A stretch of DNA of 64,000 bases from Motilibacter peucedani (GTDB lineage Bacteria; Actinomycetota; Actinomycetes; Motilibacterales; Motilibacteraceae): contig NZ_RBWV01000011.1 of the NCBI RefSeq assembly GCF_003634695.1, positions 434,001 through 498,000 on the forward strand, in the 5' to 3' direction. This document shows positions 24,539 through 38,322 of the stretch, in pieces; positions within the stretch are counted from its first letter, which is position 1; every line of letters starts with the position of its first letter. The notes under the pieces were generated by a model. That model was not told the DNA's origin and ran no database searches. It saw only the letters and a program-made list of their open reading frames with translations. The translations under genes and the position numbers were made by a program.

Positions 24539-26149
24539 ATGCAGCAGAGTGCAGACCGAGACCACGGCAGCGGGAGGGCGGGTGGCGGCCACCGCGTACG
24601 ACTGCGCGCCGCCCTCCTCGCCCTCCCCGTCGCGCTCGTCGGCCTCGTCCCCGCCACCGCAGCGCATGCGGCGCAAGGCGGCGTCGTGCAGACCGACAAG
24701 GGAGCCGTCCGCGGCACGACCGCCGACGGCGTCGAGAGCTTCCGCGGCATCCCCTACGCCGCAGCGCCCAACGGCGCGCGGCGCTGGAAGGCCCCGCAGC
24801 CGGCTGCCGCGTGGAGCGGCGTGCGCGACGCCAGCAGCTTCGGCAACGTGTGCCCGGTGCTGCCCAGCACCAACGGCCCGCGCTCGGAGACCGAGGACTG
24901 CCTCTTCATCAACGTGCAGCGCCCAGCGGGCACCAAGGCCGGCGACAACCTGCCCGTGCACGTCTTCATCCACGGCGGCGGGCTCACCAACGGCAGCTCG
25001 AACCAGAACGACGAGGCCAAGCTCGTCGCCGACACCGGCGTCATCGGCGTGTCGATGAACTACCGGCTCGGTGTCTTCGGCTTCCTCGCCACCTCGCAGC
25101 TCACCGCCGAGGGCGGGCAGTCGGGCAACTACGGCTTCCTCGACCAGCAGGCGGCGCTGCGCTGGGTGCAGCGCAACATCCGCGCGTTCGGCGGCAAGCC
25201 CTACGAGGTCACCATCGACGGGGAGTCGGCCGGCGCGTACTCCGTCTGCGGGCACATGATCTCGCCGGAGTCCCGCGGGCTGTTCAACCAGGCGATGATG
25301 CAGAGCACCTACTGCCCGAGCCGCACCGAGGCGCAGGCCGAGTCGGCCAGTGCCTCGTTCGTCAGCGCGGTCGGCTGCTCGTCGGCGGCGGACCCGCTCG
25401 CCTGCCTGCGGGCCGCGTCGCCCGCGAAGCTCCTCGACGCGAGCGGCGGCTTCGGCTCGACGTTCGTCCACGGCACCAGCACCTTCCCCGAGCCGACGCA
25501 GACGGCGCTGGCCGCCGGCCGGTTCGCGCACGTACCGGTCCTCACCGGCGTCAACCGCGACGAGGGCCGCACCTTCGTCGCCGGCGCCACGGGCACGAAG
25601 GCCGACTACCTCACCTACCTCAGCCGCAGCTACGGCGCACGGGCCGACGACGTCTACGCGCACTACCCGTGGCCGGCGCAGTCCGACCAGTTCACCTACG
25701 CGTACCTGCTGGGCGCACTGCTCACCGACAACGGCTTCATCGGCGGCTGCGTGCAGAGCGACTTCGTCCACACGCTGGCGAAGTACACCCGCACCTACGC
25801 CTACGAGTTCGACAACCGGACCGGCCCTGGCCTCCAGCAGTTCCCGGGCTACGTCTGGGGCGCCGGTCACGCGGCCGAGCTGGCCTACATCTGGCCGAGC
25901 TTCAACAACGGCACGCCCATCGCGCCGCTGTTCAACGCCGGTGAGCGCCAGCTGGCGAACGAGATGACGAAGTACTGGGGCGCGTTCGCGACCAACGGCC
26001 GCCCGCGCGTGGCCGGCCAGACCAGCTGGCCGCGCTTCGACAAGCACGGCTCGACGATCTCGCTGCGGCCCGGTGGGCAGAGCGTGGTCATCGACCAGGC
26101 GCAGTTCGACGCCGAGCACCAGTGCGGGTTCTGGAGCACTTTCTCCTAG
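24539..26149 (+). CDS. Secreted type-B carboxylesterase
   Basis: The 536-residue alpha/beta-hydrolase has a Sec signal peptide (LRAALLALPVALVGLVPATAAHA, cleavage near residue 44), then TDKGAVRG, EDCLFINV, the oxyanion HGGG and the nucleophile elbow GESAGAYS. The acidic residue is in NRDEGRT and the His in GAGHAAEL. AAGGGAG precedes the ATG. Cys pairs (NVC/EDC) match secreted members. It should cleave carboxylic esters outside the cell; paired with LacI control, a plant- or lignin-derived ester is plausible but unproven. Confidence 0.95.
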   Translation: MQQSADRDHGSGRAGGGHRVRLRAALLALPVALVGLVPATAAHAAQGGVVQTDKGAVRGTTADGVESFRGIPYAAAPNGARRWKAPQPAAAWSGVRDASSFGNVCPVLPSTNGPRSETEDCLFINVQRPAGTKAGDNLPVHVFIHGGGLTNGSSNQNDEAKLVADTGVIGVSMNYRLGVFGFLATSQLTAEGGQSGNYGFLDQQAALRWVQRNIRAFGGKPYEVTIDGESAGAYSVCGHMISPESRGLFNQAMMQSTYCPSRTEAQAESASASFVSAVGCSSAADPLACLRAASPAKLLDASGGFGSTFVHGTSTFPEPTQTALAAGRFAHVPVLTGVNRDEGRTFVAGATGTKADYLTYLSRSYGARADDVYAHYPWPAQSDQFTYAYLLGALLTDNGFIGGCVQSDFVHTLAKYTRTYAYEFDNRTGPGLQQFPGYVWGAGHAAELAYIWPSFNNGTPIAPLFNAGERQLANEMTKYWGAFATNGRPRVAGQTSWPRFDKHGSTISLRPGGQSVVIDQAQFDAEHQCGFWSTFS

Positions 26150-26167
26150 TACGCACCGGCTCGTCCC

Positions 26168-26200
26168 GAGGGCGCCCGGCCACGTCGGCCGGGCGCCCTC
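26168..26200 (+). terminator. Terminator hairpin after the esterase
   Basis: GAGGGCGCCCGGCC-ACGTC-GGCCGGGCGCCCTC is a perfect 14-bp stem with a 5-nt loop 18 nt after the stop codon. Confidence 0.8.
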
Positions 26201-26627
26201 ACGCGGAACGGTCCTGCGATGCCAGTCAGACGTGCCGCGCCCAGGGGCGGCCGAGAAGCTGAGCGACCACACGAACGGGGCAGACCGCATTGGGGGCCCC
26301 GCCGCGCGTCCCGCGCCCATCCGTGGCGAACCGACGGCAACGGCAGGCTCGGCCTTCTGACTTCGCCATCCGGCAGAACGCCCGTTCGTCGGCAGGCGTG
26401 CCACAGGGTTTCGGAGCACGTTGGCCGTGACCAACGGGTGTGTAGAAGTCGTGCGCGACGCGTCGCGCCAATGATGCCTGTGCTGACATGCAGCATAGGC
26501 ACCACCAGACTCTTCTACAACACCGTGGCACGCGTCGCCGTCTTAGGTCTCGTAAGTGTCGCCTAGCGGACGATTACGCCCAACTGACGCAGTGGTTCTC
26601 CTTCGGCTCATGCCGCCGTTGACAAGG
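26201..26627. other. Non-coding stretch, lower GC, flanking the RHS gene
   Basis: About 430 bases hold no convincing gene: all open frames lack protein-like composition, ribosome sites and family motifs. Base composition is visibly less GC-rich than in the flanking housekeeping genes. The only structure I see is the branched element at 26441-26519. The stretch could be the decayed downstream edge of the RHS island. Confidence 0.6.
26441..26519. other. Branched palindromic element, candidate structured RNA or mobile-element end
   Basis: Outer arms TGTAGAAG(TC) and (GAC)TCTTCTACA enclose two inner hairpins: the perfect 16-bp palindrome GCGCGACGCGTCGCGC (26453-26468) and TGCCTGTGCTG-ACATG-CAGCATAGGCA (26475-26501, one mismatch). 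The result is a three-way-junction fold on either strand. No gene overlaps it. Confidence 0.5.
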
Positions 26628-26711
26628 TCAGCGCATGACGACGGCGATCAAGATCGCCACAGCAAGGACGACCAGACAGAGACCCACGTAGGCACGTGTC
26701 TTTTTCGACAT
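26628..26711 (-). CDS. 27-residue single-span membrane micropeptide
   Basis: Four bases after the RHS stop, an ATG opens a 27-codon frame: a basic start (MSKKTR), a 19-residue hydrophobic span (AYVGLCLVVLAVAILIAVV) and a final Met-Arg. The basic head, uninterrupted membrane helix and position make it a credible small protein despite the lack of a clear ribosome site; it may be translated by coupling to the RHS gene. It could be an immunity or partner peptide for the RHS tip. This is inference from position and topology only. Confidence 0.5.
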   Translation of the reverse strand: MSKKTRAYVGLCLVVLAVAILIAVVMR

Positions 26712-26715
26712 GGCG

Positions 26716-29700
26716 TCAGCCGAAGATCGCGTCGTAGAGGTTGCCCACCTCGCAGGCGACGCCAGCGCCGATGAGGCCGGTCGCTGCACCGGCGGCGGCA
26801 CCGCCTGGAACACTCACCTCAGCGAGTGGCCCTCCGGCTACCCCTGCGGCCGCACCGGAAACTCCGGCAACCACTTCCGCCTTGAGGCAGTCCTCGGCGC
26901 CGTGGATGTCTACCTTGTTGACAGGGTCCGCCCCGCCGTAGAGATGGGCGTTTGCCTCCTGACCGGTCGGGTCTGGCTGAGTAAAGCGGCCGAGGCTGGG
27001 GTCGTAGTAGCGGTACCCGAGCTTGTACAGCCCGGTGACGCTGTCGCGGTAGCCCGCGGTGAAGCGGAGAGCGTTGTTGGACGCCTGCGCACCGGTGACG
27101 GTGCGGGTGTTGCCCGCAGGGTCGTAGCCGTACTTGGCGACGACCGCGCCGTTCTGGTCGGTCATGGCGATGACGCTACCGAGGTTGTCGGTGAGGTAGT
27201 AGTAGCTGGTGACGACACCGGCGGTCACCTGGCGCATGGAGATCGGTGTGCCGTTCGGCATGCGGGTGTAGGCCAGGGTTGATCCGGCGCTGTTGGTGAA
27301 GGTGGCGATGCCTTCGACGCCGTTGGTGAACGGTGTAGACCCCGCGCCGGTGCGCTCGAAGTTGGTGGCTCCGAAGTAGGTGAACGGCACGGTGGTGCCG
27401 CCGGTCCCCGCGGTGGAGGTGCGCAGCGAGGTGAGCTGCTCGCGGGGGTTGTGGGTGTCGGTGCGAGGCTGGACGTTGTAGACGCTTGCTGATCCGGGGC
27501 TCAGGGTCTCGTTGCCGTTGGCGTCGTAGGCCCAGCCGCTGGTGCTGCCGTTGCGGGTGGTGAGCTGGTCGGCGGCGTTGTAGGCCCAGGTGTCGATCCG
27601 GTGGGTGCCGCCGGTGAGGACGTCGGCGCGGGTGCGGTTGCCGTTGGCGTCGTAGCTGTAGGTCCAGGACGCGTTGGTCGTACCGCCGGAGGTGACCTCC
27701 ACTGCGCTGGCGAGCCGCGCCTGGCTGTCGTAGGCGTAGGTAGTGGTGCTGTTCGCCGGTCCGCCGATGCCGACGACGTCCCTGCGGCGCTGGACCCTCG
27801 TGCGGTCGTTGGCCGGGAGGCTGCCGCCGACGACGCTGTTGTAGGCGTAGTTGAAGTCGGTCAGGGTGCCGGCGGAACCGGTGGCCTTGATCTCGGTGGC
27901 GCGGCCGGAGTTGTCCCAGGTGGTGGTCTGGGTGACCCCGCCGGGGTAGTGCACCGCCTTCAGGTTGCCGTTGGCGTAGTAGTCGAACGTGGTGCAGGTG
28001 CTGGCGTCGGTGGCGCAGGTGTTGCGCTCGGCGAGCGAGGTGAGCTCGTTGGCGGCGTCGTAGCTGTAGCGGACGTGGACGAAGGTCTCGTCGACGTAGT
28101 CGACGAGGTTGCCATTCTCGTCATAGCCCATCTGCTGGGTGACGGTCTGCCCGGGCAGCTGCTTCGTGATCTGACGGTTGAGCGTGTCGTAGCTGTAGGT
28201 CGCCGAGGCGGCGGTGAGGCTGTCGTACTGGGTGGTGAGGTTGCCGTCGGCGTCGTAGACGTAGACGATGCTGCCGCCGGGTGAGGTGTACACCGTCTGG
28301 GTGCGGTGGTCCAGCTTGTCGTAGGAGTACGTCGTCGTCTGGCCCTTGCCGTCGGTCACCGAGGTGACCCGGCCCACGCTGTCGTAGGTGTAGGTCGTCG
28401 CGCCGAGCGGGGCGGGCGGGGTGACCGTGACCAGGTTGCCGTCGGTGTCGTAGGCGTAGGAGGTGACTCCACCGCGGCCGTCCGTGGCGGTGCACAGCTG
28501 GCCAACTTTGCCGCCGCATGAGGCGCCGCCGACGCCTTGGTGGGTGTAGGTCTTGGTGAAGACCCCGCCGGCCGGGTTGGGCGACTTCTCGGTCGCGACG
28601 TTGCCGGGCGTGTCATAGGAATAGGTCGTCTGGTTGCCGGCGTCATCTTCGCTGCACTTGACCTGGTACGGGTGCCCGGTGTCGGTGCTCGAGCAGCCGG
28701 ACACGTTGCCGTACTGCGCCTTGGCGGCAGCCCCGGTCGGCAGGGTGACCGACTGCAGGTTGTTCGTGCCATCGGTGGCGTAGGAGTAGGCGATCTGGTG
28801 GGCCGTGTCACTGGAGCCGGTGCCCATGGCGTCGACCGCGGACTGGACGTCGGAGTTGGTCGTCCAGGTGGTGTAGCGCGAGCGCCCGAGCGGGTCGGTG
28901 GTCTTGGTGACCCGGCCGGCGGAGTCCATCACGAAGGTGGACGTGTTGGCTCGCGGATCCTTGACGTCAGTGGTCATCGCCCCGCCATTGCCCGGGGTGT
29001 AGGTGAAAAACGTGGCGGCGGAGTTCCCGTTGTTGTCGCCGGCGTTCTTGTACTGCCGGAAGGAGGCGACCCGTCCGGAGGTGTCGTAGCGGACCTCGCT
29101 CCAGTTTCCCCGCGGGTCCTGGATGAATGCCAGCTTGCCGCTGTCCCAGGTGTAGTTGGTGACGCCACCGGAGGGGTCGGTGACGCTGGTCAGGTTCCCG
29201 GAGCCGTCGTAGCCGTAGGTCCAGGCGCGACCGGCGGGGTCGGTCTCCTGGGTGATGCGGCCCGAGGTGTAGGTGATGTTGGTGACCCGGCCGGCGGTGT
29301 CAGTGATGCTCGCGAGTCGGCCGTCGCTCCAGTAGCGCAGCGTCTGGACGACTCCGTTGCGATCCGCGACCGTCGACAGGTAGCCACCCGTGGTGAACGT
29401 GTACTTGACTGAGTTCTTGCGGTAGGTCAGCGACCAGGTGCCGTTGCTGTTGTGCACCAGGTCGGCGTTCAGGCCGGATGGTGCGGTCCAGCCGCCGGAC
29501 CCGTTGCTGGTGAAGGTGGCGGTGAAGCCCGACGGGGCGTGGAACGTGACGGTCGATCCGCTGGCGACGAGACCGACGTCCCGCCCGAGCGATAGCGAGC
29601 CGCCGGTGCCGAACGAGCCGGCGCCGGTCGCCTGCGAGTTGTAGAACCGGTCGAGGTTCAGCGACAGGCCCGGACCGTTGACGCCAAGGTCACTGGAGTG

Positions 29701-30033
29701 GAGCTCGAAGTTGCCTGTTGACAGGTTCACCGTCGCGTAGGCGTCGTCCCACAGCTGGAACGTCTGTGCCCCGTAGAACGACTGCTCCCCCAGTCGGCTG
29801 CCGGACGCGCCGGGCGCAGCCCACGTGGCTGTCGGCGTCGACCCGGCCGGCGTGCGGTCGATGGACGACGGCGCGTTCCAGACCACCGGAGTTGGGCCGG
29901 CCGCCTCCGCGGAGCCGGCAAATGGCACAGCGACCAGACCCCCCGCCGCCAGTGCCAGAACTGGCGCGCCTACCGCGAGCCGGCGCTGCAGACGCCGACT
30001 CCCCCACCCTTGCGTGCGTTGCGCATCCGCCAT
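26716..30033 (-). CDS. Secreted RHS/YD-repeat protein with short variable tip
   Basis: The 1105-residue protein has a signal peptide (RRLAVGAPVLALAAGGLVAVPFAGSAEA), an N-terminal domain (FQLWDDAYATVNLSTGNFEL) and a long series of YD repeats (for example YGYDGSGNLTSVTDPSGG and YSYDANGNRTRADVLTGG). It ends in an RHS core motif RYYDPSLGRFTQPDP and LYGGADPVNKVDIHG. After the core a 60-residue tip is rich in Gly/Ala with small-residue spacing and two Cys (tip positions 4 and 49). In polymorphic toxin systems the tip is the effector. The start at 30033 has AAGGAG. Base composition is lower in GC than the neighbours, suggesting transfer. Confidence 0.9.
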   Translation of the reverse strand: MADAQRTQGWGSRRLQRRLAVGAPVLALAAGGLVAVPFAGSAEAAGPTPVVWNAPSSIDRTPAGSTPTATWAAPGASGSRLGEQSFYGAQTFQLWDDAYATVNLSTGNFELHSSDLGVNGPGLSLNLDRFYNSQATGAGSFGTGGSLSLGRDVGLVASGSTVTFHAPSGFTATFTSNGSGGWTAPSGLNADLVHNSNGTWSLTYRKNSVKYTFTTGGYLSTVADRNGVVQTLRYWSDGRLASITDTAGRVTNITYTSGRITQETDPAGRAWTYGYDGSGNLTSVTDPSGGVTNYTWDSGKLAFIQDPRGNWSEVRYDTSGRVASFRQYKNAGDNNGNSAATFFTYTPGNGGAMTTDVKDPRANTSTFVMDSAGRVTKTTDPLGRSRYTTWTTNSDVQSAVDAMGTGSSDTAHQIAYSYATDGTNNLQSVTLPTGAAAKAQYGNVSGCSSTDTGHPYQVKCSEDDAGNQTTYSYDTPGNVATEKSPNPAGGVFTKTYTHQGVGGASCGGKVGQLCTATDGRGGVTSYAYDTDGNLVTVTPPAPLGATTYTYDSVGRVTSVTDGKGQTTTYSYDKLDHRTQTVYTSPGGSIVYVYDADGNLTTQYDSLTAASATYSYDTLNRQITKQLPGQTVTQQMGYDENGNLVDYVDETFVHVRYSYDAANELTSLAERNTCATDASTCTTFDYYANGNLKAVHYPGGVTQTTTWDNSGRATEIKATGSAGTLTDFNYAYNSVVGGSLPANDRTRVQRRRDVVGIGGPANSTTTYAYDSQARLASAVEVTSGGTTNASWTYSYDANGNRTRADVLTGGTHRIDTWAYNAADQLTTRNGSTSGWAYDANGNETLSPGSASVYNVQPRTDTHNPREQLTSLRTSTAGTGGTTVPFTYFGATNFERTGAGSTPFTNGVEGIATFTNSAGSTLAYTRMPNGTPISMRQVTAGVVTSYYYLTDNLGSVIAMTDQNGAVVAKYGYDPAGNTRTVTGAQASNNALRFTAGYRDSVTGLYKLGYRYYDPSLGRFTQPDPTGQEANAHLYGGADPVNKVDIHGAEDCLKAEVVAGVSGAAAGVAGGPLAEVSVPGGAAAGAATGLIGAGVACEVGNLYDAIFG

Positions 30034-30463
30034 GAACCGCTCCTTCGAGCAACACCCGGAGGTGGGAGGCGGCATCCATGCCACCTGCTACCACAAAATC
30101 GGGACACCGCAGGTCTACAGGCCATTGCTCGAGGTGATCAAGGAGGTCGCTGATGAACGATTCTCGGAGGTTATTGCAGGGCAGCTACGCGAAACGGGGA
30201 CAAGTTCGGTCACATTTGACGCGGGCGGCCCAATCGCAAGATCACTAAACACTTTGTGATATAGATCACATCACCCGGCCTGTGACCCTGGAAGCAGCTG
30301 TCGTGGGTGAAGCCGTCAGTGCGGCGGCGCTCATGTAGCGCATGAAGCGCCTGACGTCCGGCTTCGCGACCGACGTCGGCTGAAGCGACGGCGCCACCGG
30401 AGCAGGCACCCGCCACCAGTGGCTGTAATCCTGGCGCTGGCTTTGCGCGTCAGCATGCCGACG
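30034..30463. other. Non-coding leader region upstream of the RHS gene
   Basis: About 430 bases without a supported gene, AT-richer than average. It contains the CRP-like palindrome at 30255-30270, 222 bp before the RHS start. An open frame on the plus strand (30032-30259) exists but has no ribosome site and starts inside the RHS start region. Confidence 0.6.
30255..30270. promoter_or_regulatory. CRP/GlxR-like binding site
   Basis: TGTGATATAGATCACA matches the consensus TGTGA-N6-TCACA in all ten fixed positions. It is in the leader of the RHS gene, which would be its natural target; the actinobacterial CRP homologue uses this motif. Confidence 0.7.
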
Positions 30464-30501
30464 CGCCTCCGCCCCTGCGCAGACGCGCTGGGGCGGAGGC
30501 G
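30464..30501 (-). terminator. Strong hairpin after the beta-helix gene
   Basis: CGCCTCCGCCCC pairs perfectly with GGGGCGGAGGCG (12 bp), and inside it GCGC-AGAC-GCGC extends the stem past a single T/T mismatch. It lies 76 nt beyond the minus-strand beta-helix stop. Confidence 0.75.
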
Positions 30502-30577
30502 GGATGTCACAGCGGCTGACTAGTGCACCGGCGGCACCAGACGCTGCTGCGTTGGAGCGCCCCACGTCAGCGGTGCG

Positions 30578-31606
30578 TCAGGGCGTGCACTTGCGGTTGC
30601 TGATGCCCTTGTCGCCGTCGTCGGTGCGGACGTTGTCGCAGCCGATGGTGTTGTTGTCGCTGTTCTTGTAGACCTTGATGAGGTAGCCGGGCACGCCGCC
30701 GGTGACGGTGTTGCCGCGTACGACGTTGTCGTCGCCGGAGCCCGGGATCTGCTTGCCGTCGAGTCCCGCGATGGAGTGGATCTGCATGGCGTCGTCCTGA
30801 GCGCCGGCGCCGGTGTTGGAGACGACCCGCCAGCCGTTGCCCTTGAGGTCGACCCACGAGTCGCCGGAGTTCCAGCCGACGACACCGGCGTCGAGGAAGG
30901 TGTTGGCAGAGATCGTGCCGCCGATCGTGCCTTCCTTGACGTCGACGCCCTCCGCGGCCGTGCGCTCGATGCGGTTGCCCAGGACGCGTACCTTGTTGGT
31001 GCGGTCAGGCTTGCCGGCCGTCACGGCCGCCCAGTTGTCGACGGAGGAGCCGACGTCGATCCCCTCGCCGTAGCGCGCGTTGGTCAGCCCGGTGTCATGG
31101 ACGTAGCTGCGCTGTACGACGGCCTCGCTGCTGTTGCCCTGGAGGCGGATGCCCTTCTGGCCGATGGTGCCGACCTCGACCTTGTCGATGACGGTGCCCC
31201 AGGAGTGGCTGACCTCGATGCCGTTGAGGGCCTTCGTGACGGTGAAGCCGGTGAGGCGCCACTGCGCGCCGCCGATGGAGAGTGCAGTGCCCGTGCTGGT
31301 CGATCCAGTCGTCAGGACGGCACGGCGAGTGCCGGTGATCTTGATCGGGTTGCTGAACGGCGCGCTCTTGGCACCGACGAACTGCCCCGTGTAGGTGCCG
31401 TCCGCGAGGACGATGCTCGTGCCCGGCGCGGCGTTGGCCAGCGCGCTCGTCAGCTGTGCCGCCGTGCTGACGTTCACGACTGTGGCAGCTGACGCGGGCG
31501 AGGCCCAGGCGACGGCGCTCACGGCGACAACAGGGAGGGTGACCGCGGCTGCGGCCACCCTCGCACGGGACTCGGACAGCGCCGGCAGGGCGCGCAAGGG
31601 GTTCAT
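30578..31606 (-). CDS. Secreted parallel beta-helix protein
   Basis: The 342-residue protein has a signal peptide (RARVAAAAVTLPVVAVSAVAWASPASA) and a right-handed parallel beta-helix of the pectate-lyase-like superfamily, with repeated coils such as IVLADGTYTGQF, GIRLQGNSSEAVVQRSYVHDTGL, GIDVGSSVDNW, GVDVKEGTIGGTI and DNTIGCDN-type turns. It is clearly paralogous along its whole length to the C-terminal half of the divergent gene at 31942. A polysaccharide-binding or lyase role is likely; a catalytic set is not evident. No clear ribosome site precedes the ATG. Confidence 0.87.
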   Translation of the reverse strand: MNPLRALPALSESRARVAAAAVTLPVVAVSAVAWASPASAATVVNVSTAAQLTSALANAAPGTSIVLADGTYTGQFVGAKSAPFSNPIKITGTRRAVLTTGSTSTGTALSIGGAQWRLTGFTVTKALNGIEVSHSWGTVIDKVEVGTIGQKGIRLQGNSSEAVVQRSYVHDTGLTNARYGEGIDVGSSVDNWAAVTAGKPDRTNKVRVLGNRIERTAAEGVDVKEGTIGGTISANTFLDAGVVGWNSGDSWVDLKGNGWRVVSNTGAGAQDDAMQIHSIAGLDGKQIPGSGDDNVVRGNTVTGGVPGYLIKVYKNSDNNTIGCDNVRTDDGDKGISNRKCTP

Positions 31607-31941
31607 GGAGGCAGGCTGGGACGCCGATGATCTCCGCACCAGAGCCCTCGGTCGAGACGGCCGGGCCACCACGTGCGTCGGCGACCGATTGAGTGGATAT
31701 GTCTGGTCTGCAGGAAGCTGTGAGCGCCCGCGAGACACGTCTCGTCAACCGCTTCGACACGCAGGCATCACGAGAAGTTCAGCGGCACGGGACTTTGCGA
31801 CATCCGGTCGACTGAGGGACGCCGCCCGGCCCCACCTGCCGGCGCCTCCATTGCTTCTGGACACTGCGCTCCTGCGCACGGTAGGAAGTACGTGGGGCGG
31901 GTGGGTCGGCTGCCGGCCCGGCCCGCCGACCGAGGGACGCC
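31607..31941. other. Divergent intergenic region between beta-helix paralogues
   Basis: About 335 bases without a gene. It holds a palindrome CGAGAC-AC-GTCTCG (31731-31744) and a short direct repeat GAGGGACGCCG (near 31816 and 31933), the second copy giving the ribosome site of the plus-strand gene. Both secreted paralogues are presumably transcribed from here. Confidence 0.55.
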
Positions 31942-33831
31942 GTGTCCGCATCTCGACGCCTGCTCGTCCCCGCCCTCCTCGGCGCGCTCGTCGTCGGCGG
32001 CGCGCCGCCGGCCTCCGCCGCGAGCACCCCGTACACCGCGCGCGACGCGGCGAAGCACCTGCGGGTCGGTGCGTACGCTGCGGGCACCGGCTTCTCGGCC
32101 GCCCGCTTCGGCCGGGCGTGGCAGGACGTGGACCGCAACGGGTGCAGCACCCGCGACGACGTCCTGCGGCGCGACTTCGGCCGCACGGTGCGGTTCCGCA
32201 GGACGGGCTCGTGCGTGGTCGTAGCGGGCAGCGCGGCGAGCTTCTACAGCGGGCGGAAGGTCGCTCTGTCCGCCGCACACCCCGCAGCTGTCGTGGTCGA
32301 GCACGTCGTGCCGCTCGAGCAGGCGTGGCGCAGCGGCGCCCGCTCGTGGTCCCCGGCCAAGCGCGCCGCCTTCGCCAACGACCCGCTCGAGCTCGCGACG
32401 GCGGACGCGGCCTCGGTGCGGGCTCGCCGGGGTCGCGACCTGACGTCGTGGCGGCCGGCGTCCCGGACACGAGCGTGCGCCCTGGCTGGACGCGAGACGG
32501 CGGTGCTGTGGAAGTACGGCCTCAGCGCCACCGCGAAGGAGAAGGCACTGCTGCTCTCCCTGCTCTCGAGCTGCCCGCGGCAATCGCTGGTGCTCGCTGG
32601 TCCGGGGGTCGACGCGCCGGCGCGGCCGGGGATGGCGACGAGCACGCCGGTGCAGCAGCCGGCGCCGCCCGTGGTGCCGGGTGGGCCGGTGGTGCCGTCC
32701 CCGGCGCCCACCGTCCCTGCGGTCCCCACTACGGTCCCGGTGCCCCAGCCCGCTCCCGTGCCAGCGCCGACGCCTACGCCTACGCCTGCACCGGCGCCTG
32801 CGCCGACCCCGACGCCCGAGCCCGCGCCGCCCGCCGATCCGGCACCTCCGAGCGAGCCGGTGCCACCGCCCGTACCCGATCCGCCGGCGCAGCCGGACCC
32901 GGACTCCCCCGTGCCCCAGCCGGACGGCAGCGTGCTGGTGTCGACGGTCAAGGCGCTGCGCACGGCGCTCGCCGCAGCCGTACCCGGCTCTGTCATCGAC
33001 CTCGCGGACGGCACCTACGCGGGCTCTTTCGACGCGAAGGCCGACGGCACGGCCGACGCCCCGATTACCCTGCTGGGCGGCAGGGGCGCGGTCCTCGTCG
33101 GCACGTCGCTACGCAGCGGCAGCGTGCTGACGGTCACGGGCGACCACTGGCACGTGGTCGGCCTCAGCGTCACCGGCGGGCAGAAGGGCGTGCTGGTCGA
33201 CGGGTCGCAGGGGACGGTGCTCGAGGACGTCGAGGTGTCGGGCAGCGGCAACGAGGGCGTGCACTTCCGCGGCGGCTCGGCCGACGGGGCGGTCCTCGAC
33301 AGCTACGTCCACGACACGGGGCTGCAGGAGAAGAAGTTCGGTGAGGGCGTCTACGTCGGGTCTGCGGTGACCAACTGGGGCAAGTACTCGCACGGGCTGC
33401 CCGACCGCTCCGACCGCGTGCGCGTCGAGGGCAACCTCATCGCCCGCACGCAGGCCGAGGGCGTCGACATCAAGGAGCGCACCACCGGAGGCACCGTCGC
33501 GCACAACGCCTTCCTCGACGCCGGCACCTCAGACGAGAACTCGGCCGACTCCTGGGTCGACGTGAAGGGCTACGCCTGGAGCATCACGGACAACTCGGGC
33601 AGCGGCACCTTCGCCGACGCCCTCCAGTCGCACCGGGTCCTGGGCGGTGACGCGCCGGGCGAGCCGTCGGGCGAGGGCAACGTGTTCTCGCGCAACACCG
33701 TCAGCGGCGGCGTGCCGGGCTACGTGGTGCGTATCGAGAAGGGCGCGAACGGCGTGACGACCAACCGCGTCACGTGCGACAACACGCGCACCGACGGGAG
33801 CGCGGAGATCTCCAACGTGGCCTGCGGCTGA
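31942..33831 (+). CDS. Secreted HNH (DUF1524) nuclease fused to a parallel beta-helix
   Basis: The 629-residue protein has a signal peptide (1-26), an HNH-type DUF1524 nuclease domain (about 40-210: WQDVDRNGCSTRDDVLRRD, VVEHVVPLEQAWRSGARSW, AFANDPLEL, WKYGLSATAKEKALL), a Pro-rich linker (about 230-330) and a beta-helix (331-629) closely resembling the divergent gene product. In related nucleases the core motif reads D-H-V-V-P-L; here it is Glu120-His121. His121 and Asn146 are kept. The GTG start follows GAGGGA. It probably acts outside the cell; substrate of the helix domain is unknown. It converges with the next gene (5 bp). Confidence 0.85.
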   Translation: MSASRRLLVPALLGALVVGGAPPASAASTPYTARDAAKHLRVGAYAAGTGFSAARFGRAWQDVDRNGCSTRDDVLRRDFGRTVRFRRTGSCVVVAGSAASFYSGRKVALSAAHPAAVVVEHVVPLEQAWRSGARSWSPAKRAAFANDPLELATADAASVRARRGRDLTSWRPASRTRACALAGRETAVLWKYGLSATAKEKALLLSLLSSCPRQSLVLAGPGVDAPARPGMATSTPVQQPAPPVVPGGPVVPSPAPTVPAVPTTVPVPQPAPVPAPTPTPTPAPAPAPTPTPEPAPPADPAPPSEPVPPPVPDPPAQPDPDSPVPQPDGSVLVSTVKALRTALAAAVPGSVIDLADGTYAGSFDAKADGTADAPITLLGGRGAVLVGTSLRSGSVLTVTGDHWHVVGLSVTGGQKGVLVDGSQGTVLEDVEVSGSGNEGVHFRGGSADGAVLDSYVHDTGLQEKKFGEGVYVGSAVTNWGKYSHGLPDRSDRVRVEGNLIARTQAEGVDIKERTTGGTVAHNAFLDAGTSDENSADSWVDVKGYAWSITDNSGSGTFADALQSHRVLGGDAPGEPSGEGNVFSRNTVSGGVPGYVVRIEKGANGVTTNRVTCDNTRTDGSAEISNVACG

Positions 33832-34187: not shown

Positions 34188-34955
34188 TCAGCCCTGGCCG
34201 CCGATGCGCCTCCCGAGCTCGCTCGCCGCAGCGGCCACCGCCGCGACCAGCCGGTCGCGGCCGGGGTTGTCGACCTCGTCCGCCGGGTACGTCGTGGCGA
34301 GCCCCGCGGCCGGCAGCCCCGCGTGGTCGACCACCGCGTACGCCACCGAGGCGAAGCCGGCCGTGACCTCGCCGTCCTCGACCGCGTACCCCCGCGCCCG
34401 CGCGTCGACCAGCAGCCGGCGCAGCGCCGACGGCGAGTCGGGTCCCCCGGAACCCCGCTGCACGAACGAGTCGCGGTCGGGGAAGAGCGCGCGCACCTGC
34501 GGCGCCGGCAGGGCTGCGAGCATCGCCCGACCGCTCGCCGTGAGGGTCGCGGGCAGGCGTACGCCGACGTCGGTCACCAGCGGCGGCCGGCCGGGTGCGC
34601 GCTCCTCGACGACGTAGAGCACCTCGCGGCCGTGCAGCACCGCGAGGTGCGCCGCGAAGCCGGTGGCGTCGACCAGCCGGGCGAGGACCGGGCGCGCCAG
34701 GCGACCGAGCGGCGCCTGGTGCGTGTAGGCGGTGCCGACCTGCAGGGCGGCGACGCCCAGGCCGTAGCGCCGCTCCTCGGGCAGGTGGACGGCGTAGCCG
34801 GCGCTCACGAGCACGTTGAGCAGGTGGTAGACGGTCGAGCGAGGCAGCCCCAGGTCGGCGGCGATGCGCGCGGCGGGCAGCGGGCTCGCGTGCCGCGCCA
34901 GGTGGGTCAGCACCTGGAGCGTCTGCTCGGCGGCGGGGACGCGGCTGGCTCCCAT
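34188..34955 (-). CDS. IclR-family regulator, probable regulator of the hut cluster
   Basis: The 255-residue protein has the winged helix ([48 protein letters not shown]) and the IclR effector domain ([70 protein letters not shown]). It is divergent from hutH, and the shared region has a perfect palindrome, so histidine-pathway intermediates are its likely effectors. Inferred from position; no named hut IclR was matched. Confidence 0.92.
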
Positions 34956-34968
34956 GCGCTACAGCCTA

Positions 34969-34986
34969 TGTCTGCGATCCCAGACA
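34969..34986. promoter_or_regulatory. Palindromic operator between IclR gene and hutH
   Basis: TGTCTG-CGATCC-CAGACA is a perfect 6-bp inverted repeat 14 nt from the IclR start and about 55 nt from the hutH start. Confidence 0.7.
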
Positions 34987-35041
34987 GCAGATGCTCGACA
35001 CCGCTTCCCCGCGCGGGCGGCCACGCGGTCCACTGGGTGCC

Positions 35042-36601
35042 ATGACGAGCACCACCACCCGCACCACCGTCGAGGTCGGCTCCGGGCCGGTCTCCCCCGC
35101 CGACCTCGTGGCCGTCGCCCGCGACGACGCCGGCGTGCGGCTCTCGGCGGAGGCGCTCGACGGCATCGCCCGCTCGCGGGCGGTCATCGAGGCGCTCGCT
35201 GCCGACACCGTGCCGCACTACGGCGTCTCGACCGGCTTCGGTGCGCTGGCCACCGTCCACATCCCCGCCGCCCGCCGGGCCCAGCTCCAGGCGAGCCTCG
35301 TGCGCTCGCACGCGGCCGGCTCCGGGGCCGAGGTCGAGCGCGAGGTGGTGCGGGCGCTGATGCTGCTGCGGCTCTCCACGCTCGCGACCGGCCGCACGGG
35401 CGTCCGCCCGGTGGTGGCCGAGACCTACGCCGCGCTGCTCGACGCCGGAATCACGCCGGTCGTGCACGAGTACGGCTCGCTGGGCTGCTCCGGCGACCTC
35501 GCCCCGCTCGCGCACTGCGCGCTGGCGCTGATGGGCGAGGGGACCGTGCGCGACGCTGTCGGCGACCTGCGGCCCGCCGCCGAGGCGCTGGCCGAGGCCG
35601 GGATCGCACCCATCGCGCTCGCCGAGAAGGAGGGCCTCGCCCTCATCAACGGCACCGACGGCATGCTCGGGATGCTGCTGCTCGCGGCGCACGACCTGCG
35701 CGAGCTGCTCGTGGCCGCCGACATCGCCGCCGCCATGAGCGTCGAGGCACTGCTCGGCACCGACGCGGTCTTCGCCGCCGACCTCCAGGCGCTGCGCCCG
35801 CACCCGGGCCAGGCGGCCGCGGCCGCCAACCTGCGTACGCTGCTCGCCGGCTCCGGCGTCATGGCCAGCCACCGCACCGGCGAGTGCACGCGCGTGCAGG
35901 ACGCCTACTCGCTGCGCTGCTCGCCGCAGGTGCACGGCGCGGCGCGCGACACCCTCGCCCACGCCGAGCTGGTGGCCTCGCGCGAGCTCGCCGCCGCCGT
36001 CGACAACCCGGTCGTCACTACCGACGGCCGGGTCGAGAGCAACGGCAACTTCCACGGCGCACCGGTCGCCTACGTGCTCGACTTCCTCGCCATCGCCGCG
36101 GCCGACGTCGCCTCGATGAGCGAGCGGCGCACCGACCGGCACCTCGACGTCAACCGCAACCACGGCCTGACGCCGTTCCTCGCCGACGACCCGGGCGTCG
36201 ACAGCGGCCACATGATCGCGCAGTACACCGCCGCTGGCATCGTGAGCGAGATGAAGCGGCTGGCCGTGCCTGCGAGCGTCGACTCGATCCCCAGCAGCGC
36301 CATGCAGGAGGACCACGTGTCGATGGGCTGGGCGGCCGCGCGCAAGCTGCGGCGCTCGGTCGACGGGCTGACCCGCGTGGTGGCCGTCGAGCTGCTCACC
36401 GCCGCCCGCTCGCTCGACCTGCGCGCGCCGCTCTCACCGGCCGCCGCGACAGGGGCGGTCCGCGACGCGATCCGCGCGGCAGGGGTACCAGGCCCGGGTC
36501 CCGACCGCTACCTCGCACCCGAGATCGAGGCGGTCGTCGAGCTGGTACGCAGTGGTGCCATCCGCACCGCAGCCGAGTCGGTCACCGGCCCCCTCGCCTA
36601 G
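35042..36601 (+). CDS. hutH: Histidine ammonia-lyase
   Basis: The 519-residue enzyme deaminates L-histidine to urocanate. The MIO-forming site is [14 protein letters not shown] (Cys149-Ser150-Gly151) rather than the more common Ala-Ser-Gly; Cys-Ser-Gly is, to my knowledge, a known actinobacterial variant. Other family blocks are [56 protein letters not shown] and the C-terminal [11 protein letters not shown] 35042 is preferred over 34991, which sits next to the operator and gives an uncharacteristic 17-residue head. First gene of the hut operon. Confidence 0.96.
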
Positions 36602-36655
36602 TGTCCGAACGCACGAAGGCGTTCGGGCAGGTCGGCGGAGAACGAGTTCGGACAC
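36601..36655. repeat. 55-nt palindromic intergenic element, copy C
   Basis: It begins on the last base of the hutH stop codon and ends just before the hutU ribosome site. Ends are GTGTCCGAAC and GTTCGGACAC; an inner hairpin CCGAACGC-ACGAAG-GCGTTCGG makes alternative pairing possible. Inside an operon, so it is not a full terminator. Confidence 0.85.
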
Positions 36656-36666
36656 GAGGAGTTGAG

Positions 36667-38322
<1,656 letters not shown>

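Follow-up and report, generated by a model that had tools for sequence, protein, structure and literature searches.

A putative secreted PL31-type lyase fused to a probably disarmed, strongly basic HNH domain in Motilibacter peucedani

When a secreted protein unites an HNH nuclease domain with a parallel beta-helix, which half does the work, and what might the other half be for? The question is raised by P0001, an open reading frame of 629 codons with GTG as its start codon, which lies in the window that we analyzed, a stretch of 64,000 nucleotides from Motilibacter peucedani (contig NZ_RBWV01000011.1). A preliminary description of this DNA had proposed a working nuclease borne on a polysaccharide-binding helix. 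Our analysis indicates that these roles are probably reversed, with a lyase that would do the cutting and a nuclease domain that would grip polymers. The features concerned are the following, in window coordinates.

31942..33831, + strand: whole gene P0001, a putative secreted pseudo-HNH / linker / PL31-type lyase fusion of 629 aa
31942..32019, + strand: signal peptide, residues 1-26, read by eye from the sequence (residues 1-27 have pLDDT <50 in the model)
32023..32592, + strand: HNH/DUF1524 (GmrSD_C) domain, residues 28-217, strongly basic, with four conserved Cys
32299..32304, + strand: Glu120-His121, the (D/E)-H position of the HNH site, kept in P0001 and D-R in four other fused copies
32416..32418, + strand: Val159, replacing the putative metal-ligand Asn (Asn in 49/49 unfused relatives examined)
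32593..32928, + strand: Pro-rich flexible linker, residues 218-329, ~112 residues
32929..33828, + strand: predicted PL31-type (PsAly-like) parallel beta-helix lyase domain, residues 330-629
33352..33354, + strand: Tyr471, equivalent to PsAly catalytic Tyr184
33472..33474, + strand: Lys511, equivalent to PsAly catalytic Lys221
30578..31738, - strand: P0002, a divergent unfused lyase paralogue, 47% identical, in the same lyase clade as the fusions, with the catalytic Tyr replaced by Asp

The architecture given in the preliminary description, a signal peptide, an HNH/DUF1524 domain, a Pro-rich linker and a beta-helix in one protein, was borne out, and the EHVVPL motif with Glu120-His121, as well as Asn146, sit where they had been placed. 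Pfam GmrSD_C (formerly DUF1524) matched residues 70–153 (26.3 bits against a cut-off of 23), and Pfam Beta_helix matched residues 400–528 (28.3 bits against 25.9). The AlphaFold model (mean pLDDT 82.6, pTM 0.60) consists of two confident halves, mostly above 90 per ten-residue block, and a linker at ~218–329 that is predicted to be disordered, its ten-residue pLDDT means being 30–52. The signal peptide, which in our by-eye reading ends PASAA-S, supports secretion. Because four further fused homologues with the same order of halves were found in genomes of the host family, P0001 is not a chance open reading frame.

Among solved structures, the only strong sequence relative of the beta-helix was PsAly (6kfn; phmmer E 3.5e-42), the next match lying at E 0.063. 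Foldseek paired the modeled lyase with 6KFN at E 3.5e-18 and a TM-score by target length of 0.87, and VIA structural comparison recovered the fold at Z 41.0 (286 aligned residues, rmsd 1.6, 38% identity), against Z 29.4 for the runner-up among the matches listed. PsAly, an enzyme given as 33 kDa in size, cleaves polymannuronate endolytically and uses Tyr184 and Lys221 as its catalytic residues (PMC6796002); it is classed as PL31 (PMC8618178). Of 14 PsAly active-site positions examined, P0001 keeps 13, including the catalytic pair as Tyr471 and Lys511. The first cation site (PsAly Glu181, Glu216, Asp219) is present as Glu468, Glu506 and Asp509; at the second (PsAly Tyr244, Asp246, Gln276), the Asp and Gln are kept and Tyr244, the one exception, is replaced by Ser534. 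The account of the PsAly variants gives Y244F as still active, listed as 42, and Y184F and K221A as N.D. (PMC6796002). Judged by sequence and model, the beta-helix is a predicted PL31-type lyase whose active site is intact, rather than the binding carrier first envisaged; the matrix-type substrate envisaged with it is supported. We infer that the enzyme would be active on an alginate-like polymer.

Two other identities for the beta-helix were considered and rejected. A NosD copper protein scored 25.1 against 300 bits in NCBIfam and 16.1 against 23.6 in Pfam, with PsAly far better, and a pectate lyase, Pel9A, was weak by sequence (E 0.053) and lower by structure (Z 29.3 against 41.0). With a nutritional alginate pathway in mind, PL7 was sought in the genome that carries P0001 and gave no match, but the control queries were equally silent, so the result carries no weight for or against such a pathway.

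We compared the lyase site across relatives. In the host-family alignment A1, which leaves out two host-family lyases (L030 and L043), 17 of 20 rows are intact at the 13 positions, the exceptions being L024, L025 and P0002; P0001, L023 and L027 keep 13 of 14, all but Tyr244. Outside the host family, all 35 lyases compared from the same class have both Tyr184 and Lys221, and 33 of them have the full Glu-Tyr-Glu-Asp-Lys set. The catalytic Tyr184 has been lost from L024, L025 and P0002, half of the six-member fusion-lyase clade, against 0 of the 14 other host-family lyases of A1 and 0 of the 35 outside the family. Lyase activity is thus not a constant of the fusion, since the site is broken in two of five fused copies (L024 and L025), and some members of the clade may only bind, given that three of six are without the catalytic Tyr.

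P0002, the neighbor of P0001, also lacks the equivalents of PsAly Lys128, His154 and Arg156, and on its sequence is a probable pseudo-lyase. It adjoins an RHS/YD-repeat protein (Pfam RHS_repeat, NCBIfam Rhs_assc_core) at 26716-30084 on the - strand. The core of that protein is followed by a short C-terminal tail, for which neither Pfam nor NCBIfam gave a toxin family at E 0.1. The GC content of positions 26001-32000, which span the RHS gene and P0002, is ~0.68, against 0.71–0.77 elsewhere in the window, and this segment is possibly acquired DNA. Downstream, at 34188-38322, lie genes that, judging by their translations, may encode an IclR-type regulator, a histidine ammonia-lyase-like protein and a urocanase-like protein.

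The HNH half, modeled alone, reached a mean pLDDT of 93.2. Its best structural match was Vibrio endonuclease I/Vvn (VIA Z 10.7, 133 aligned, rmsd 2.9), and the next was the Cas9 HNH domain at Z 5.6; Foldseek by itself was weak (E 0.089). In the model, the half keeps the His-Me finger fold. One published account gives Vvn the motif Glu79-His80 and the metal ligand Asn127, and assigns to GmrD an (E/D)H pair plus two Asn residues; the second of these Asn aligns with the Vvn Mg ligand (PMC4619093). The Glu-for-Asp change in P0001, flagged earlier for testing, is therefore no defect in itself. Our assignment of the third Asn, position 159, as the metal ligand comes from the literature and from motif spacing (N150 and N159 lie nine residues apart, like N169 and N178 of GmrD), not from coordinates. 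In the published account of SspE, the N676A variant is markedly impaired (PMC9646914).

We then compared the five fused copies with 49 unfused relatives, of which 23 come from alignment A2 and 26 are further loci. This set consists of the nearest relatives of P0001 or L027 with a fetched locus and does not sample the family evenly. All 49 keep Asp-His, Asn146, Asn159 and Lys162. In the fused copies, the presumed metal-ligand Asn159 is absent in five of five (Val in P0001, Ser in the other four), and position 162 is Arg throughout. The two residues singled out in the preliminary description, His121 and Asn146, fared differently: both stand in every unfused relative, but among the four fused homologues His121 is Arg in all (Asp-Arg), whereas Asn146 is kept in three, or in four of five with P0001, which retains Glu-His. 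None of the five has kept three further family residues: Arg53 (49 of 49 unfused), Gln185 (49 of 49) and Arg45 (44 of the 46 unfused sequences that cover this position). The other motif Asn, position 150, is Glu in P0001; we did not count this as a loss because seven of the 49 unfused relatives also lack Asn there, having Glu, Asp or Val. GmrSD_C scores were 16.6–33.8 bits in the fused copies and 63.7–74.7 in three unfused proteins scanned; three of the four other fused copies pass the cut-off, and L025 falls below it (16.6 bits against 23). These substitutions suggest that the nuclease site of the fused proteins is probably disarmed and that the HNH half would no longer cut DNA, contrary to the working nuclease first proposed. 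If Arg45, Arg53 and Gln185 contact DNA, their loss means that the ligand of the domain is possibly no longer DNA. Several DUF1524 relatives (L004, L005, L047, L090, L093 and others) have an Excalibur-like C-terminal tail, identified by Pfam in L047 and by eye in the rest.

The fused HNH domains also differ from their relatives in charge. Over residues 33–212, the net charges of the fused copies are +14, +16 (P0001), +21, +22 and +25, and those of the 49 unfused relatives range from -8 to +11. High GC or base composition is rejected as the source of the basic charge, because unfused copies from the same genomes as the fused ones reach only -3 to +8. Each of the five fused copies has Arg or Lys at positions 58, 81, 105, 130 and 165, where the unfused ones have a mean charge of -0.29 to +0.06, while 18 positions, the four Cys included, are invariant across all 54 HNH sequences. 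The fused HNH domains form one clade (support 100/100); the charge shift is therefore one evolutionary event kept five times, and not five events.

Selection on the two halves was examined in L023 and L024, syntenic orthologues from two species of one genus and the one orthologue pair of fusions available, which does not include P0001. Omega was 0.18 for the HNH halves (bootstrap 0.09–0.30, 176 codons) and 0.84 for the lyase halves (0.65–1.13, 236 codons). For comparison, omega was 0.32 (0.21–0.48) in the unfused nuclease pair from these two genomes, 0.15–0.35 in three unfused lyase pairs and 0.13 in the flanking oxidoreductase gene, where the unfused pairs were compared over whole ORFs, N-terminal modules included, and the first residues of the flanking gene precede its likely start. 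In L023 and L024, the probably dead nuclease is the part kept by purifying selection, and the lyase is relaxed. Recombination of the HNH half alone as the cause of its low omega is made less likely by the dS values (0.45 for the HNH half, 0.56 for the lyase, 0.90 for the linker and 0.34 for the flanking gene). The HNH-tree branches are long in P0001 (0.81) and L025 (0.84), and the lyase branch of P0001 is 0.70; given the 0.81 branch, the HNH domain of P0001 itself could be drifting.

Five fused genes occur in four of the five genomes of the host family, which are the sole representatives of the host order in the genome set analyzed. Four of them, one per genome, share a syntenic locus that adjoins a 2-oxoacid:ferredoxin-oxidoreductase-like gene (POR_N) and is near an M48 peptidase gene (Pfam names taken from the G002 copy only). 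P0001 is an extra copy of genome G000 that lies off this locus, adjoining P0002. The five fused lyases and P0002 form one clade (98/92), whose internal order is not settled. Lyase relatives were found in 36 of 393 genomes of the class (E 1e-25) and HNH-domain relatives in 144 of 197 (E 1e-12), four host-family genomes being included in each count. No fusion was present at any of the 35 lyase loci checked, which cover 29 of the 32 outside genomes with lyase relatives (those of G251, G339 and G362 fall outside the check), and no lyase was present in the ORFs of 26 unfused nuclease loci. An apparent sixth fusion, L043 (match residues 65–613, two stops), was a false join, its lyase ORF having no HNH domain. 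PL31-like lyases are expanded in genomes G000-G003 (L028-L044), where several unfused copies per genome add to the fused genes, and some of them carry an Ig-like motif at the N terminus.

On balance, we consider it reasonably probable that P0001 is a secreted polyuronate endo-lyase in which a disarmed, strongly basic pseudo-nuclease serves as a polyanion-binding module. The protein would be exported, and the lyase would break down an acidic, mannuronate-type polymer through beta-elimination, in which, by homology to PsAly, Lys511 would be the base and Tyr471 the acid. The HNH/DUF1524 module, its cutting site apparently lost and its surface remade strongly basic, would bind polyanions, and the linker would tether it to the lyase, as in enzymes built from a binding module, a linker and a catalytic domain. 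In this way, the pseudo-nuclease may grip extracellular DNA or acidic polysaccharide and hold the lyase in the matrix, a role that its charge, its position and the linker suggest. One point against this reading is that P0001 is the sole fused copy to retain His121. That residue, standing behind Glu120 and together with Asn146, would suit a bifunctional matrix degrader whose lyase cuts polysaccharide and whose HNH half still cuts DNA through Glu120-His121 and a substitute metal ligand; Glu before the His is accepted in the Vvn and GmrD motifs as published (PMC4619093), and the fold is closest to that of Vibrio extracellular/periplasmic endonucleases. We regard such an enzyme as unlikely, because no fused copy has the metal-ligand Asn, which P0001 replaces with Val, because Arg53, Lys162 and Gln185 have also changed although all 49 unfused relatives have them, and because the SspE variant N676A is reported as markedly impaired (PMC9646914).

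The active-site loss and the long HNH branches of P0001 and L025 would equally fit a functionless, decaying relic kept merely by sitting before the lyase. An omega of 0.18 beside an attached lyase at 0.84, the 18 invariant positions with their four Cys, and basic residues at the same positions in every fused copy make this improbable. The high omega of that lyase, together with the loss of Tyr184 in half of the fusion-lyase clade and in none of the other lyases compared, would fit instead a clade that is becoming a two-domain matrix-binding protein, in which both halves bind and neither cuts; with 13 of 14 lyase positions kept in P0001, L023 and L027, we give this little credence. A basic surface fits any polyanion, and some unfused relatives have a C-terminal Excalibur domain (Pfam in L047, the others by eye), so the pseudo-nuclease might bind a protein or a teichoic acid-like cell-surface polymer and so fix the enzyme to the cell that makes it; no specific evidence for a protein partner emerged, and we think this very unlikely. 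A more tentative scenario, for which we see perhaps one chance in three, extends the polyanion-binding reading through time: the nuclease domain would have been disarmed once, fused to the lyase and selected as a polyanion grip tying it to a DNA-plus-polysaccharide matrix, after which part of the clade would have disarmed the lyase too, leaving two dead enzymes that together cross-link the matrix.

If the reading of P0001 as a lyase with a polyanion-binding pseudo-nuclease is true, a dead HNH nuclease has become the targeting module of a polysaccharide-cutting enzyme, a possible route to matrix-binding domains. The component families are known; their combination, in which a lyase retains a disarmed nuclease under selection, was not found described among the matches listed in the open-licence literature on pseudonucleases, matrix DNA with alginate lyase, Excalibur nucleases, lyase/HNH fusions and PL31. 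The gene is also an annotation trap, as an annotation by name would say nuclease or generic beta-helix protein when the likely working part is the PL31-type lyase. The pairing of pseudo-HNH and lyase may be useful for studying mixed DNA/polyuronate biofilms.

Among known systems, PsAly (Paenibacillus sp. FPU-7, PDB 6KFN) has in common with P0001 the beta-helix fold, at 35–38% identity over structural alignments, the catalytic Tyr/Lys, the cation ligands Glu181, Glu216 and Asp219 and the surrounding conserved residues; P0001 differs in having the pseudo-HNH domain and Pro-rich linker before the lyase and Ser in place of Tyr244. Vvn offers the closest solved fold for the HNH half and, as described, shares its Glu-His motif, but has Asn127 as metal ligand where P0001 has Val. 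The secreted actinobacterial DUF1524/GmrSD_C nucleases (L047 and others) have the same domain, with 34–44% identity to P0001 in A2, the four Cys in common and, in some, a Pro-rich linker; unfused, all 49 examined retain D-H, Asn159 and Lys162 at net charges of -8 to +11, whereas the fused copies have lost the site and stand at +14 to +25. The PL31-like lyases with an Ig-like module (L028-L035, L044) resemble P0001 in carrying an accessory module before the lyase with a Pro/Ala-rich joint. An Ig-like N-terminal motif was found by motif search in 11 of 39 lyase ORF rows (P0002 being counted twice in the 39), and Pfam Big_7 in L044; since such modules occupy the slot before the PL31-like lyase in relatives, we regard it as an accessory-module slot, and P0001 differs from those lyases in that its accessory module is apparently a former nuclease.
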